From Gammaproteobacteria bacterium (lineage in GTDB: Bacteria > Pseudomonadota > Gammaproteobacteria > SZUA-152): a DNA stretch of 32,333 nucleotides. Position 1 is the stretch's first letter. Each line of letters opens with the position of its first letter. The position numbers and the translations under genes were made by a program. Positions 15,024 through 27,947 of the stretch are shown here, one piece after another. The stretch spans positions 1 through 32,333 of the forward strand of contig JAVVEP010000009.1 of the NCBI GenBank assembly GCA_032250735.1, in the 5' to 3' direction. Under the pieces are notes generated by a model that saw nothing but the letters and a program-made list of their open reading frames with translations, did no database searches and was not told where the DNA came from.

Positions 15024-17486
15024 TCAGGGCGCTGTCTCCATGGGCTGATCGTGCCAATAACGCGCGGCCTGCTGGCGATAGGTATGGATCTGCTTTAACC
15101 CCAGCGGCCCGCCCAGGCGGACTGTGATAGCGCCATGGCTGGCGGTATCAAACAGGCGGATATGGCGGTCGCGGTAGCGCTGTACGATGAGCGGTTTTGG
15201 AAAGCCGTAGCGATTGCGATAGCCGACGGGAAACAACGCGATCGCCGGCGCCACCCCCTCCACAAAGGCCGTGCTGGACGAGGTCTTGCTGCCGTGATGC
15301 GGCACCACCAGCACATCCGCTGGCAGTTGTGCGGCCAGGCGTTGCAGCATTTCCTGCTCGGCGGCCTGCTCGATGTCGCCGCTGAGCAGCACGCTGTCGT
15401 TGCCGGCCTGGACGCGCAGCACGCAGGAGCGATTGTTTTCCCGCCGCCCCTTTTTATGCACCAGGGTATGCCCCTGGTCCTTAGACTCCGGCTCGGCCGG
15501 GTTCAACATCGTAAACACCACCCCATCCCACTGCCACTGCTGGCCGGCCACACAGGCCTGCAGGTCGACGCCGTGCCGCTGTTGCAGCTCGCGCCGGTCC
15601 AGCTCACTGCTCAGCACCCGCTGTACCGGCAGACTCTCCAGCAGGGCGGGAACACCACCGATGTGGTCATTATCGCCATGGCTCACCACCAGCGTATCGA
15701 TGCGCCCCCGTCCCTGGGCCAGCAGATAGGGCGCGATCACCGCCTCGCCGGTGTTAAAACCGCTGCCAAACCGCGGCCCCGTGTCGAACACCAGCACATG
15801 GTTCTGGGTCTGCACCACGCTGGCCAGCCCCTGCCCCACATCCAGCAGGGTGAACTGCGCCTCGCCCGGCGCCAACCCCGTCGGCGCCAGGAAAAACAGC
15901 GGCAACAGACCCACCATGCCCACCCCACGCCCCGGCACCCCGCGCGGCGCCAGCACCCAGGCCAGTCCGACCACGGCCACCGCCATCGCCCAGCCCGGCG
16001 GCGCCGCCTGCGACCATTGCGCAAACCGCCACTGGCCCACCAGCGCCAGCCACCACCACAGGACATCCACACTCCACAGCGCGAGCCCCAGCAACCACTC
16101 GGCCACCACCGGCAGGGGCGCGAGCAACAGCGTCCCGCCCAGGGTCAGCGGCACCGTCACCATACTGACCCAGGGCACCGCCAGCAGATTCGCCAGCGGC
16201 GCCACCAGTGAGGCCTTCTGAAACAACAGCACCAGGGCCGGAAACAGGCCCACGGCGACCACATACTGTACCCGGCCCCAGCGCCACCACAGGGAGCGCA
16301 TCGCCAGCCGCCCGGACATGGCATACAGGATCACCGCCACGGCCCCGAACGACAACCAGAAACCCGGTGCCAGCACCGCCATGGGGTCGATCACCAGCAC
16401 CAGGATCAGCGCCAGCGCCAGCAATGCACTGGGGCGGGTGTGGCGCTGCAACAGTACCGCCAGCATCACCACCGCCACCATCACCAGGGCCCGCTGGGTG
16501 GGGACCGAAAACCCGGCCAGCAGCGCATAGACCGTGGCCGCCAACAGGGCGGCGACCGCCCCCGCCCGAGCCGCCGGCCAGTGGCTCACGGCGGTGGCCG
16601 ACAGTCGCCACAGGCGGCGCACCGCAAAAAAGGCAAAGCCCGCCACCAGCCCCACGTGCAAACCGGAAATCGCCACCAGATGATTGGTGCCGGTGCGCAT
16701 CAACAGCTGCCACTGGTCCTGATCGATCAGCTGCCGATCACCGATGGCCAGCGCCAGTACGATGCCGCGCAGCGGGTGGTCGTGTAAGGCGGATTGCAGC
16801 TCATCGCGCAACTGCTGGCGGAGCTGATGAACGGGATAGGCGCGGGCCGTCACCGCCAGACGTTGGTTGGTCACCGCCGCCTGATCCGACCCGTTCGACC
16901 GGCGAGGCTCGCGCACATAACCCTTGGCCCGAATACCCTGCTGGAACAGCCAGGCCTCGTAATCAAAACCGCCGGGATTCATAAAACCGTGAGGACGCTT
17001 CAGTCGCACCGTCAGGCGCCAGCGTTCTCCCACGCGCAGCGCGGGCGGGTCCTGATACCAGCTCAACAGCAGGCGCCCCGGAAGGGGCTGTGGCTCGCCC
17101 TGCCAGTGCAGGCTATCGGGCACAAATTCAAAGCGCGTGCGCCGCTGGCCCCAGCCACCCGACGAAGACGGCTCCGGCAGTGAGGCGATCAGTCCCTCCA
17201 CCACCACGTCCTCTCCTTCCAGCGTCACCGGCAGCGCGGTGGCTAACAGCCCATGCCCCACCAGGCTGGCGCCGAAAAAACCGATGCCGGCGCTGAAAAC
17301 CAGCGCGGCCACGGTCGACGACAAACGGGCCAAACGGGATGAATAGAAAGAGGCAAAATAAAAAACCGCCCACAGGGCGGCAAACGACAGGAGCAACAAT
17401 CCCCACGACCCGACAAACGGCGGCAGCCTGCCCAACTGTTGCAGGGCCGTCGATCCGAATAACATTCCCAGCGCTACCCTGCGCAT
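15024..17486 (-). CDS. comEC: DNA uptake channel ComEC/Rec2
   Basis: Inner-membrane channel that carries transforming single-stranded DNA into the cytoplasm. The 820-residue protein has the three expected parts: N-terminal helices plus the DUF4131/OB-like region (about 1-215, with RPHGFMNPGGFDYEAWLFQQG), the competence membrane domain with many helices (about 220-520, starting with GTNHLVAISGLHVGLVAGF), and a C-terminal metallo-beta-lactamase-like domain (about 545-790) with VVSHGDNDHIGG and VPHHGSKTSSS. The metal-binding histidines and aspartates are kept, so the nuclease-like domain may be active. The ATG 17486 start has AAGGAT upstream. It is divergent from the DUF2062 gene. Confidence 0.95.
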   Translation of the reverse strand: MRRVALGMLFGSTALQQLGRLPPFVGSWGLLLLSFAALWAVFYFASFYSSRLARLSSTVAALVFSAGIGFFGASLVGHGLLATALPVTLEGEDVVVEGLIASLPEPSSSGGWGQRRTRFEFVPDSLHWQGEPQPLPGRLLLSWYQDPPALRVGERWRLTVRLKRPHGFMNPGGFDYEAWLFQQGIRAKGYVREPRRSNGSDQAAVTNQRLAVTARAYPVHQLRQQLRDELQSALHDHPLRGIVLALAIGDRQLIDQDQWQLLMRTGTNHLVAISGLHVGLVAGFAFFAVRRLWRLSATAVSHWPAARAGAVAALLAATVYALLAGFSVPTQRALVMVAVVMLAVLLQRHTRPSALLALALILVLVIDPMAVLAPGFWLSFGAVAVILYAMSGRLAMRSLWWRWGRVQYVVAVGLFPALVLLFQKASLVAPLANLLAVPWVSMVTVPLTLGGTLLLAPLPVVAEWLLGLALWSVDVLWWWLALVGQWRFAQWSQAAPPGWAMAVAVVGLAWVLAPRGVPGRGVGMVGLLPLFFLAPTGLAPGEAQFTLLDVGQGLASVVQTQNHVLVFDTGPRFGSGFNTGEAVIAPYLLAQGRGRIDTLVVSHGDNDHIGGVPALLESLPVQRVLSSELDRRELQQRHGVDLQACVAGQQWQWDGVVFTMLNPAEPESKDQGHTLVHKKGRRENNRSCVLRVQAGNDSVLLSGDIEQAAEQEMLQRLAAQLPADVLVVPHHGSKTSSSTAFVEGVAPAIALFPVGYRNRYGFPKPLIVQRYRDRHIRLFDTASHGAITVRLGGPLGLKQIHTYRQQAARYWHDQPMETAP

Positions 17487-17541
17487 GTATCAGCAATCCT
17501 TAAAATTGTGGATAATGCCCGACCACGTTCCGAGGAAGTCG

Positions 17542-18069
17542 ATGCCAAAGCGTATTATCCAGCGTTTTATGCCAGATCACAAAAAGGTCCGCGATCATAA
17601 ACGACTGAAATTTCTGGGCACTCTGCTGCATGACCCCAATATCCTGCACCTGAACCGGCGCTCGGTCGCCGGGGCATTCAGTGTCGGCTTTTTTGTGGCC
17701 TTTGTACCGGTGCCCTTTCAGATGGTGCTCGCCGCGATCGGCGCGATCCTGGCGCGCGTCAATCTACCCATTTCCGTGGCCCTGGTATGGATCACCAACC
17801 CCATCACCATGCCGCCGCTTTTCTACACCGCCTATAAGGTGGGCACCTGGATTCTCGACCGGCCGATACAGAAGGTCCAGTTTGAGTTATCCATCGAGTG
17901 GTTAATGCAGGAGCTGGGGTTGATCTGGCAGCCCTTTCTGCTGGGCTGTTTTGTCTGCGGCGTGAGCCTTGCCGTGCTTGGCAATGTGACCATTCGCCTG
18001 TTATGGCGGATGCACGTGGTCCGTAACTGGCGGCAGCGGCGCCGGCGCCAGGCGCATAAGACCGATTAA
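17542..18069 (+). CDS. DUF2062 membrane protein
   Basis: A 175-residue protein with the DUF2062 pattern: a basic start (MPKRIIQRFMPDHKKVRDHK), LLHDPNILHLNRRSVAGAFSVGFFVAFVPVPFQM, and ITNPITMPPLFYTAYKVG, with two to three membrane helices (about 50-85, 95-115 and 135-160) and a strongly basic tail. The function of the family is unknown. The start ATG 17542 has GAGGAA 5 bases upstream; the frame extends 19 codons further up but that part overlaps the comEC start. It lies between comEC and lolD, on the opposite strand from both, an arrangement seen in related genomes. Confidence 0.9.
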   Translation: MPKRIIQRFMPDHKKVRDHKRLKFLGTLLHDPNILHLNRRSVAGAFSVGFFVAFVPVPFQMVLAAIGAILARVNLPISVALVWITNPITMPPLFYTAYKVGTWILDRPIQKVQFELSIEWLMQELGLIWQPFLLGCFVCGVSLAVLGNVTIRLLWRMHVVRNWRQRRRRQAHKTD

Positions 18070-18127
18070 CTGTGCCGTTGTAGTGGTCGTATTTTATCCG
18101 GCTTACACTACCCCTCTTGAAGGACCA

Positions 18128-18293
18128 CTAGTGTTGCGAACCGGAAATAACGAAACATGAAACAGTGTCTTTTTCCGCCATGCGTCGTTGCAGCCCCTTG
18201 CCGTATACCCCATACGGCTGCGGGTCTGCGCCTAGCCTGGCGAAAAAATCCATCTGTTGCATTTGTTCCGCTATCTCCGGTTCGCAACACTAG
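18128..18293 (-). mobile_element. MITE-like long palindrome (element A)
   Basis: The two ends are near-perfect inverted copies: ACTAGTGTTGCGAACCGGA from 18127 on, and its complement ending at 18294, 19 bases exact and continuing imperfectly. The whole ~166 bases folds on itself, with an apical GCCGTAT/ATACGGC stem at the middle. CTAG stands at both ends (18128-18131, 18290-18293), which fits a 4-base target duplication. In the minus-strand RNA the first three arm mismatches become G-U pairs. The right CTAG contains the lolD stop codon (18290-18292). It has no coding capacity. Confidence 0.75.
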
Positions 18294-19030
18294 TCGCTTT
18301 CCACAAACGCACCATCGGTCAACTGCAACACCCGCGACATACGCTGCGCCAGTTGCAGGTCGTGAGTCACCATTACGATGCTGGTGCCCATCTCTTCATT
18401 CAGTTGCAACATCAGGTCGTACACCTGCTCGGCGGTGCGGTGATCCAGATTGCCGGTGGGCTCGTCCGCCAGCACACACAGGGGCCGGGTAATCAGGGCG
18501 CGGGCGATGGCGGTGCGCTGACGTTCGCCGCCCGATAGCTCGCCGGGCTTGTGCTTGAGTCGGGCCGACAGCCCCACCTTTTGCAGCAGGTCCGAGGCCT
18601 GCTCACAGGCCTCGGCCGCCCGCATGCCGCGAATCAGCAGCGGCATGGCGACATTTTCCACCGCGGTGAATTCCGGCAGCAAATGATGAAACTGGTACAC
18701 AAAGCCCAGCGTCTTATTGCGCAGTTTGCCGCGGGCCGCCTCGCTGAGCGCACTCAACAGCTGGCCGCCCACCCGGATCTCGCCCTGGGTCGGCAGTTCC
18801 AGCCCGCCCAACAGATGCAGCAAGGTGCTCTTACCGGACCCCGAGGCGCCGACAATCGCGATGCGCTCGCCCTTTTCCACCTGCAGGCTGACGCCGCGCA
18901 ATACCTGGACAGTCAGGCCGCCCTCGTCGAAGGTTTTGCTCACCGCGCGGCAGTCCAGCACCGGCGCGGCAACACTGTCGGCGGCGGCGTCTGCGCGAGT
19001 ATTGCCGGATGGATGCATCGTCTCACTCAT
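18290..19030 (-). CDS. lolD: Lipoprotein-releasing ATPase LolD
   Basis: ATPase of the LolCDE complex that detaches outer-membrane lipoproteins from the inner membrane and hands them to LolA. The 246-residue protein has Walker [17 protein letters not shown], the LolD-type loop [21 protein letters not shown], signature [15 protein letters not shown], Walker [13 protein letters not shown] and the switch histidine in VMVTHD. ATG 19030 overlaps the lolC stop by eight bases, which shows coupling; ATG 19018 is an alternative that would drop four residues. The N-terminal ~20 residues before the ABC domain are extra compared with E. coli. Its TAG stop lies in the terminal CTAG of palindromic element A, so the last residues may have been changed by that insertion. 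Confidence 0.95.
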
Positions 19031-20504: not shown

Positions 20505-21476
20505 ATGAACCCATTCGATGCCAGACCCGCTTTCCACTCGCACGCATTCTCCTCTCAGACTTTCTCCTCTAAACTTTTTTCCTCTAGACTTTTCTCCTCT
20601 AGACCAAGCCCCGCCTTTTTCCTGTCCGCCGTGCTGGCACTGGCCGTGCTGACCCTCAGCTCCTGCGGAACCACGCCGAGCACCACCGCCAGCGATACGG
20701 CCGCCGCTAGCGCACAACCAGACTCCGCCGAGGGCACCGCAACAGAAAACACCACAACAGACAGCGAAGCGAGCCAGCCCAGCACGGACGGTGCCGTGAG
20801 CGCTGCCGCCGAGCCCGAACCCGCCACGGCGGTTGAGCCAGAGCCGGTGCGCATCGTCGAATCCTGCAAAGACGAGCCCTATGGAAGATTTGAACAAGAG
20901 GCCCGCGCCAGCATGGCCAAAGGCCTCGCCGCCACCGAAGCCGGACAATATGGCGTGGGTTTTCGCAACCTTGCAGAACACAAACAATGGAGCGACACCC
21001 ACAAGCGACTCTTCACCAGTGTCAACGAGGCCTGCAACGCGCTGAGCCAGTGCGCCCAGCAACACCCCGACGACAAGACCACACAATGCGCCGAACAGGC
21101 CAGCCACTTCAAACAGTGGCAGGAAGCTGCCGAGCGTTTCGCCCGAAAGGCCAAACTCAGCGAAACCACACAACCGCCGAAAATATGTTCATTTGAACCC
21201 AACCTGACAGACGCCGCCGACTGTTTTCACGGCCTGGCCGACAATATCGACACGGCCTGCAACACCGCCGCCTGCAAAAAAACCAGCGACTGCTGGCGCA
21301 GCATCGGCTTCCTCGACCAGGCAATCAAACAGGCCAGCTCCGCCTGCGGATTCGCCCGCACCCCACTCGCCGAATGTCGCGGCTACGTCACCGTCGCCCA
21401 GCGTCGCGAAGCCACCTTCAAACGCTGTAGCGACCTGCAGCAGCAGCTCAGCATCCGCGTCGTACCGGTGTTATGA
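20505..21476 (+). CDS. Cysteine-rich lipoprotein of unknown family
   Basis: I do not recognise this 323-residue protein. It has a lipoprotein signal: hydrophobic AFFLSAVLALAVLTLSSCG with the lipobox Cys at 54. The stretch before it is unusually long (about 36 residues) and contains four repeats of Phe-Ser-Ser-x-x from a 15-bp DNA repeat. After the lipid-anchor Cys comes a Thr/Ser/Ala/Glu-rich linker (about 55-120), then a domain of about 200 residues with 12 cysteines, an even number that fits six disulfides in the periplasm. Its helical pattern and Cys spacing suggest a tandem-helix fold. The start ATG 20505 has an excellent GGGAGGT site; the frame is open far upstream but there it is antisense to lolCD. 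It is divergent from lolC. Confidence 0.8.
   Translation: MNPFDARPAFHSHAFSSQTFSSKLFSSRLFSSRPSPAFFLSAVLALAVLTLSSCGTTPSTTASDTAAASAQPDSAEGTATENTTTDSEASQPSTDGAVSAAAEPEPATAVEPEPVRIVESCKDEPYGRFEQEARASMAKGLAATEAGQYGVGFRNLAEHKQWSDTHKRLFTSVNEACNALSQCAQQHPDDKTTQCAEQASHFKQWQEAAERFARKAKLSETTQPPKICSFEPNLTDAADCFHGLADNIDTACNTAACKKTSDCWRSIGFLDQAIKQASSACGFARTPLAECRGYVTVAQRREATFKRCSDLQQQLSIRVVPVL
20547..20606 (+). repeat. 15-bp tandem repeat, four units, in coding sequence
   Basis: Four units at 20547-20561, 20562-20576, 20577-20591 and 20592-20606, of the form TTCTCCTCTAGACTT with small changes. Each encodes Phe-Ser-Ser-x-x within the region before the lipoprotein signal core. Because the unit is a multiple of three, gain or loss of units would keep the frame. 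Confidence 0.85.
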
Positions 21477-21915
21477 GTGATGGAAGGTAAATCGCCCTGA
21501 GTAGGATTGATCCAGCGGCAGACAGGTAGGGTGGGCACGTTTTCTGTGCCCACGCGAACAGGATTAAATAGGGTCGCTGTTTCCCAGCCACCAAAGTGGC
21601 ATGCACCCGGTTCATCACGACATAACGCAGGCATGGCAATATATAGTCGTCTCTCTGAAGAGGGCTTATCTTAAATCGCCCATCCCACAATGAGCCTGTT
21701 CGCCTTCCTCGTTTGTTTACTAAAGCCGACAACCTACCCGCCAACCGCTTCATTAACTGCGAAATCGTTTTCGTATCCTTTCCTGGCTCAACAATCAAAT
21801 GCACATGGTTCATCATCAAACACCAGGCATACACCTTACTGCCCAGCCTCACATTCCACTCGAACAACTTTTCCAAATAAAACTGATGATCACCGTCCGC
21901 AACAAAAAACGTAGA
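21448..21915 (-). pseudogene. Truncated REP-associated tyrosine transposase (RAYT)
   Basis: This frame encodes the middle of a RAYT/Y1-type HUH transposase: TFFVADGDHQFYLEKLFEW, then the HUH metal motif NHVHLIVEPG, RRTGSLWDGRFK, and the tyrosine segment LRYVVMNRV. The N-terminus of about 20-30 residues usual in RAYTs is missing: the frame begins just after the stop codon of the AbiE toxin gene, with only a TTG as possible start. After about position 21600 the reading loses similarity, runs through a REP hairpin (21526-21556) and ends antisense within the lipoprotein gene. It is best seen as a dead remnant, though the catalytic residues visible are intact. Confidence 0.8.
21526..21556 (+). repeat. 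REP-like hairpin, copy 2
   Basis: GTGGGCAC (21531-21538) and GTGCCCAC (21546-21553) form a perfect 8-bp stem with a 7-base loop. It lies 50 bases after the stop codon of the Cys-rich lipoprotein gene and inside the decayed 3' part of the RAYT gene. The unit agrees with copy 1 (429-459, opposite orientation) at 28 of 31 positions. Confidence 0.8.
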
Positions 21916-23839: not shown

Positions 23840-23867
23840 TGGTGGGCGATACTGGGATTGAACCAGT
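23840..23867 (-). repeat. Duplicate of the tRNA-Val 3' end (att-like site)
   Basis: Twenty-eight bases identical to 23958-23985, i.e. the CCA, acceptor 3' strand and T-arm of tRNA-Val. The copy lies 118 bases on the 3' side of the tRNA gene and lacks the rest of a tRNA. This is the pattern left by tyrosine-integrase elements that insert at tRNA 3' ends and restore them. Confidence 0.85.
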
Positions 23868-23957: not shown

Positions 23958-24032
23958 TGGTGGGCGATACTGGGATTGAACCAGTGACCCCTGCCGTGTG
24001 AAGGCAGTGCTCTCCCGCTGAGCTAATCGCCC
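23958..24032 (-). tRNA. tRNA-Val (anticodon CAC)
   Basis: The minus strand forms a complete cloverleaf of 75 bases. The acceptor GGGCGAT pairs with ATCGCCC, and discriminator A and an encoded CCA follow. The D-arm has AGCTCAGCGGGAGAGC. The anticodon stem CTGCC/GGCAG encloses TTCACAC, giving anticodon CAC, which reads GUG (Val). The T-arm contains GGTTCAATCCC. The gene is a single transcription unit with its own promoter and no tRNA partner. Confidence 0.96.
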
Positions 24033-27735: not shown

Positions 27736-27947
27736 CTAGTGTAGTGTCTTATATAAAACGTGTATTTAGAAAGCCACTCAAGGCGCAAGTGCAAGGCGCA
27801 GACCGCAGGGAATGTCGGCTACCTTTCCAAGGTCTGCAACGCGGCAATTGCGTCTTGAGTGTCTTCCCGTAGGGCGATATAGGATCTTGAGGTACACATC
27901 AACTCTTTCTCGTCTAAATATGCGTTTTATATGAGACACTACACTAG
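27736..27947 (+). mobile_element. MITE-like palindromic element (element B)
   Basis: Inverted ends of 34 bases (27736-27769 and 27914-27947) agree at 31 positions; the three differences become G-U pairs in the plus-strand RNA. CTAG stands at both ends (27736-27739, 27944-27947), as in element A, which also shares the following TGT. Inside is a second inverted pair, CACTCAAG...GCAGACC against its complement at about 27831-27862, so the RNA would have a main stem, an inner stem, and a ~50-base single-sided insert. No coding capacity is apparent. Confidence 0.78.

Follow-up and report, generated by a model that had tools for sequence, protein, structure and literature searches.

Element A, an imperfect palindrome of 166 bp at the 3' end of lolD (positions 18128..18293 of the window, by which we mean the whole 32,333-nucleotide stretch of DNA analysed here), is a non-autonomous transposable element, or MITE. 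We propose, with a probability of roughly 85%, that the element was inserted by a DDE transposase, most likely one of the IS1182 kind, at a CTAG whose TAG was the lolD stop codon, that the staggered 4-bp cut duplicated this CTAG, and that lolD thereby kept its stop. After such an insertion the ribosome would halt at the base of a 166-nt hairpin forming the 3' tail of the lolD message, and this co-transcribed hairpin, at the mRNA 3' end, could be a substrate for RNase III, by analogy with what is described for the Correia/NEMIS repeats of Neisseria (PMC2649163). Element A, a second element in the window (element B) and MITEs with other ends share a folded core of about 72 nt.

Element A lies in the gap between lolD (18290..19030, minus strand; gene name from the first-pass annotation, ATG start at 19030 placed by eye within a listed ORF that reaches 19093) and a convergent 194-aa ORF (17485..18069, plus strand), which we take to encode a DUF2062 protein and which has matches in all 12 genus genomes searched, the source genome included. 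The sense (core) orientation of the element is minus, co-directional with lolD. The left CTAG (18128..18131) is the presumed first copy of a 4-bp target-site duplication, read here from the letters and demonstrated at a sister locus described below; the right CTAG (18290..18293), the second copy, contains the lolD TAG (18292-18290, minus strand). Inside these lie exact terminal inverted repeats, TGTTGCGAACCGGA on the left (18132..18145, plus) and its partner on the right (18276..18289, minus), and the wider arms (18127-18157 and 18264-18294, 31 nt each) are 90% complementary. The exact terminal match runs for 18 bases from the CTAG inwards, or 19 with the flanking A/T, which confirms the palindrome of about 166 bases with exact 19-base ends that the first-pass annotation had described, together with its CTAG at each end and the lolD TAG within the right one. 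Also as described there, the first three differences between the arms become G-U pairs in the minus-strand fold.

The minus-strand RNA of element A folds at -103 kcal/mol (z -14.6) and the plus strand at -83.9 kcal/mol (z -10.3); since none of 200 shuffles folds as well on either strand, the palindrome is far beyond chance. The apical folded core occupies 18174..18246 (minus) and scores 63.2 bits over positions 1-72 of our core covariance model R2, in which the A core is a training member. With 166 bp, terminal inverted repeats and no transposase gene, the element has the size and structure of a MITE; apart from lolD, the only ORF of at least 100 aa that touches it is 18157-18492 (plus), which continues antisense to lolD. 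Searches with Rfam models at gathering score, over the window and 20 element loci, matched tRNAs only and none of the elements.

The source genome holds four copies of A, the other three being 94, 97 and 98% identical to the window copy. A DNA search with A matched three of 57 genomes: the source, G044, which carries kin of A and belongs to another family, and G013, whose weak match (E 8.6e-4) we take for chance. None of the 11 other congeneric genomes gave a match, and further kin are present in G191, G298 and G389, genus mates of G044. These copies, together with the target duplication at the sister locus, bear out the earlier suggestion of a MITE insertion at the lolD end. A point against our reading is that in three of the four A copies the tetramer is degenerate on at least one side.

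The duplication itself is seen in the G044 genus, at a junction between a thymidine-phosphorylase-like and a prs-like gene (names given by eye; loci L044, L045, L311, L312 and L313), which is filled by a kin element (L044/L045) in G191 and G044 and empty in G389 and G298. The empty sites read GGGGAACT-CTAG-TGTTGG in G389 and GGGGAACT-CTAA-TGCTCG in G298, and the filled site of G191 reads GGGGAACT-CTAG-[element]-CTAA-AGCTGG. A single CTAR in the empty sites and two in the filled ones thus show a 4-bp target duplication. In all four genomes (three translated, G191 judged from the letters) the upstream frame ends on the TAG or TAA of the target; in the empty G298 site this stop overlaps an ATG as a stop-start pair (TAATG). 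The filled G044 site retains both the stop, in the left copy, and the ATG, in the right copy, and the right copy of G191 reads CTAAAG, without the ATG. Since the stop is kept after duplication, an element can enter at a stop codon and spare the upstream protein, and the locus offers a clean case of CTAG insertion on a stop, even on an overlapping stop-start pair, with the upstream protein unbroken. At a second locus tried (L046), one flank only was found in G044, with a single CTAG adjoining it, which is compatible with duplication and is not proof of it.

At lolD itself the search gave no empty site, and two CTAG copies flank the element. The C-termini of LolD from relatives provide a second line of evidence: 13 loci were examined (L031-L042 within the genus among them), four of which lacked LolD, leaving nine loci from eight genomes in which the DNA search had given no match to A. 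Five of these loci end in NGEFE[EK][SN] followed by TGA, one residue short of the window protein; three (L031, L037 and L032) have ends shifted by -3, -2 and +2 residues; and the ninth (L041) diverges, so that eight of nine end within three residues of the window LolD. Among the loci of the genus, the C-termini vary by a few residues round the same stop position, and the stop is TGA, TAG or TAA. Because relatives without A end LolD near the same place, the element has neither truncated nor visibly extended the protein. The first-pass annotation had read the end of the element as forming the lolD stop codon: the TAG does lie within the right CTAG, but the element need not have made it, since at the sister locus the stop pre-existed in the target and was duplicated, and the LolD comparison speaks against formation by the element. 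We therefore reject the idea that the element necessarily created this stop. If the sister locus is a guide, the insertion most likely struck the existing lolD stop and duplicated it, and a CTAG was probably present at lolD beforehand.

Stop codons are common among the targets of such elements. We collected related elements with an earlier covariance model, R1, hand-picking 72 loci from its matches; these gave 86 matches, of which 73 were kept after removal of 12 antisense matches and a weak additional one (L077, 35.3 bits). Of 32 CTAG|TGT-type elements hand-picked from the 73 (L045 was omitted, since it represents the insertion already counted as L044), 20 terminate at the stop codon of an open frame that is 100 codons or longer, compared with 22 of 137 control CTAG sites drawn from flanks and other loci (Fisher p 4e-7). 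Taken alone, this excess would favour an active choice of stop codons as targets. Selection, however, would remove insertions at CTAG sites inside genes. A crude gene caller placed 65 of 100 control CTAG sites inside genes, 25 between genes and 10 on stops, such that stops make up 10 of 35 tolerated sites; judged in this way, 13 of the 32 elements are on stops, or 14 with lolD, which the caller missed. If in-gene insertions are lost, about three in ten tolerated CTAG sites are stops anyway, so that this loss may account for most of the excess without any choice of target. Active targeting, which we reject as unneeded, seems quite improbable.

A candidate for the transposase that moves A is suggested by its target. 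We scanned 31 loci with PF01609 matches (30 of 68 matches plus the source genome's own, a single fragment) and found no pair of A-like ends; one locus (L363) has a single 14-of-16 match to an A end, without a partner, which we take for chance. No named autonomous partner for A was thus found among the PF01609 loci or in the source genome. Two loci of one genome (L353 and L360 in G172) are complete IS1182-family transposons with CTAG on both sides (NCBIfam 360 and 362 bits, cut-off 270). They duplicate CTAG, as A presumably does, but they are full insertion sequences with a transposase, and their terminal repeats are GAGCCTG/CAGCCTG instead of the TGTTGCG of A; the CTAG target alone is shared, with no common terminal repeat. 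A further locus (L358) was not counted as a CTAG duplication, for it also fits a 9-bp duplication with a CACTAGTG end. Core-bearing repeats of Methylobacillus arboreus have GAGCCTGTT ends, with GAGCCTG in common with L353. The IS1182 family is said to include palindrome-targeting members, and insertion of IS1272 itself reportedly produces no duplication (both from PMC5678879). Together, the CTAG duplications, the palindrome-targeting members and the GAGCCTG ends make an IS1182-kind transposase our best guess for the enzyme that would have moved A.

The fold of the element is kept, and on one strand in particular, as the first-pass annotation had suggested from the G-U pairs. Across 20 sequences related to A, double-sided changes that preserve the pair are seen in 28 of 52 consensus pairs, so that the arms covary among them. 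When pairs are taken from the folds of both strands, 16 columns among the A kin are G-U-only and two A-C-only (p 0.0007, with columns that are not independent events). Counted by core orientation, the G-U-only/A-C-only columns of the other subfamilies are 19/8, 10/4, 6/0, 9/2, 18/3 and 25/5, with 10/4 for B, and a GGGGG-class subfamily has the opposite balance (7/15). Eight of nine subfamilies thus lean to G-U in core orientation, A and five others with one-sided p<0.05, and at the level of families one, the GGGGG class, goes against a fold kept on one strand. Most elements beyond A, B and a third family (C) were gathered with R1, a model that may favour G-U pairs in the orientation in which it was built, and the bias of these subfamilies is therefore partly ascertained; A, which was gathered by BLAST apart from one row (L047, from R1), and B are nearly free of this effect, with 16 against 2 and 10 against 4 columns.

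A fold kept on the sense strand of lolD, stable and set between convergent genes, might suggest that the hairpin has been recruited to terminate or stabilize the lolCDE mRNA. The first-pass annotation had proposed that it now serves as the 3' structure of the lolD mRNA, and the NEMIS hairpins are described as RNase III targets in mRNA, leading to cleavage or protection (PMC2649163, PMC2229807). Several observations make such a role unlikely in our view. Genes run into stop-codon elements both ways, 9 in sense and 14 in antisense, so a strand-specific fold does not show that the element serves lolD; the stem is not followed by a U-run for intrinsic termination; and with no match to A in the 11 congeneric genomes, there is no sign that lolD needs it. 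Selection or bias for the one-strand fold thus seems to act on the element's own life rather than on host mRNA.

That life could also be led as DNA: G-T pairs form in DNA too, and one strand might extrude as a folded single strand and be recognised by the mobility machinery. The lack of a clear bias of orientation to host genes and the conserved internal loops of the core are consistent with this idea. A 4-bp target duplication with terminal inverted repeats, on the other hand, suits a DDE cut of duplex DNA, and HUH/REP-type movement is not known to leave a target duplication. We regard a fold read as single-stranded DNA as rather doubtful, and keep to duplex cutting by a DDE transposase as the preferred reading.

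The core that A shares with other MITEs is present in many families of the class. At E<=0.001, R1, built from seven sequences, had matches in 63 of the 369 class genomes, or in 54 of 314 when only good genomes are taken, its two training genomes being counted. The matched elements differ in their ends, which include CTAG|TGT..., CTAG|GGGGGTGTTAACA, TA|TACCCGTCGCGG, TA|TACTTCTCGCG and CTTA|AGGAAACGCTGATC, the targets of the last four types being read from flanks and not from empty sites. We chose 32 cores by hand, as a rule one or two from each subfamily (with three from A and its G044 kin and four from family C); the regular-expression extraction of cores failed for four of 35 and truncated some. 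The cores are laid out as GGCAAGGCGC - stem - internal loop of 3/2 nt - (ATAG..CTAT) - stem - GCAACGCCGCC, and fold mostly alike with few alignment gaps, L053, L081 and L067 being less alike. In the alignment 17 of 19 pairs covary, and five internal-loop letters (A14, G15, A58, A59 and C60) are invariant in all 32. In 132,644 bases around unrelated genes and transposases, selected without regard to the core, R2 gave one match at E<=0.01 (L035, 65.5 bits). This is a TATACCCG-ended element of a congeneric genome, itself outside the training set but of a subfamily that was represented there.

Matches beyond the training set were also obtained by letters. A contig scan with core letters, using one fixed spacer that is wrong for most cores, returned seven stretches: two from a Salinisphaera-MAG (L301 and L303) and one from a Planctomycetota-MAG (L306), located in this way and outside training, score 40-55 bits with R2, and a Thermoflexus stretch has no symmetrical hairpin round its match. 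Training sequences for the core model also came from the Planctomycetota-MAG (L304) and from Methylobacillus arboreus (L300). The bare pattern CAAGGCGC-N25..55-GCAACGC has at least 10 matches in 31 of 340 genomes (27 in the source, 108 at the highest), compared with none of 340 for an order-swapped control (one in the source, eight at the highest), all genome counts being read by eye from tables. At least one match is found in 202 of 340 genomes with the core pattern and in 177 with the control, such that chance matches are many; of 23 listed places in the source genome, 11 are core hairpins by their letters (one place in B being listed twice) and the rest look like chance.

Such chance matches, the freely varying apical stems and the fact that most elements were collected with a covariance model would fit a common core that is a convergence of GC-rich hairpins and not the product of common descent. 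High counts are nevertheless specific to the order of the pattern, the internal-loop letters are invariant, and a Neisseria Correia element outside training matches the core end to end whereas ERIC, also a hairpin MITE, does not; convergence therefore seems very improbable to us. We suggest instead, as a tentative model to which we give rather less than even odds, that these elements form one class-wide hairpin superfamily, Correia included, defined by a one-strand core of about 72 nt, in which ends and targets (CTAG, TA, CTTA) have been swapped between transposases and the core, as RNA or as folded single-stranded DNA, is the conserved working part recognised by a common factor. The shared core would keep the elements alike, while the ends would follow whichever transposase moves them.

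The Correia comparison was made with R2 trained without Neisseria sequences, on 11 contigs found by the Correia end pattern, which itself extends five letters into the core (CAAGG). The only element of the 107-bp type (L147) matches end to end (33.7 bits, E 8.6e-8) and a shorter one (L145) scores 19.1 bits. Of nine longer elements, four score 11-14 bits inside the element, one (L144) has a chance-like match outside it and four give nothing at E<=1; in the long 155-bp type the core match is weak or absent. On these scores the Neisseria Correia repeat appears to share the folded core of element A. Like A, the Correia/NEMIS/CREE repeats are described as palindromic MITEs of 100-160 bp found in mRNA, with a directional core and a target duplication (PMC2649163), but their 26-bp repeat ends, TATAGTGGATTAA with TA termini (PMC2229807), differ from the TGTTGCGAACCGG/TGTTGCG ends and CTAG target of A. 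The same 2009 account describes the Correia repeat as confined to Neisseria and its mobilising mechanism as then not determined (PMC2649163). If its core belongs to a class-wide superfamily with an IS1182-type CTAG branch, the origin and the transposase of the repeat would become testable, and if the superfamily is true a covariance model could annotate many repeats that have no Rfam name.

Other known repeats stand further from A. With filters off and E<=10, R2 gave nothing on the one E. coli ERIC tested (L378), the best score at the locus being 6.6 bits outside the ERIC, and we therefore reject ERIC as a member of the superfamily. ERIC/IRU resembles A as a hairpin MITE of about 127 bp with reported effects on transcripts (PMC2229807), and although it has no core match, some core-bearing elements (the TATACCCG class) carry ERIC-like TATACCCG ends. 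YPAL/RU-2, a palindromic repeat of about 168 bp adjoining genes, is set apart from A by its description, which gives duplications of 3-26 bp, internal inverted repeats and near-dyad targets (PMC2229807). None of the papers listed in our literature searches joins these families; the stem-loop catalogues PMC1590033 and PMC2267715 may hold some of them. A text search with core letter strings also returned no paper, a negative of little weight, as sequences rarely stand in running text.

Element B, the second CTAG-flanked palindrome of the window (27736..27947, plus strand), has eight copies in the source genome at 73-100% identity, and its core (27781..27853, plus) scores 60.9 bits with R2, of whose training set it is part. 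In two B copies the stem contains a GCCTAAAGCGCCTACTGTTGGTGCA-type segment: L017 has it twice, and in L018 it replaces the core. Family C is represented in the source genome by five matches (L277, L278, L287, L292 and L297) in longer elements of about 265 bp with CTAGTACTCCTTCAA or CTAGTACCCTG ends, and in four of the five the inverted end sequence is also present on the right. Some family C elements apparently hold more than one core hairpin, facing each other. In L078 (438-762) two core-bearing elements abut directly, one of which seems to have been inserted at the terminal TA of its neighbour.

The window holds further repeats of other kinds. An ORF at 21448-21876 with the motif MMNHVHLIVEP resembles a REP-associated tyrosine transposase. 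REP/BIME repeats are not known to leave a target duplication. Like A, those with a RAYT are palindromic and intergenic, but they are described as 20-40 bp long and tagged with GTAG or CGTC (PMC3733652). A hairpin-like repeat of 29 nt, GTGGGCACG..TGCCCAC, occurs twice in the window, at 429-457 and 21528-21556. An exact 28-nt direct repeat lies at 23840-23867 and 23958-23985, the second copy overlapping a tRNA gene (23961-24032, minus strand), and the first looks like a stray tRNA end of the kind that an integrated element may leave.
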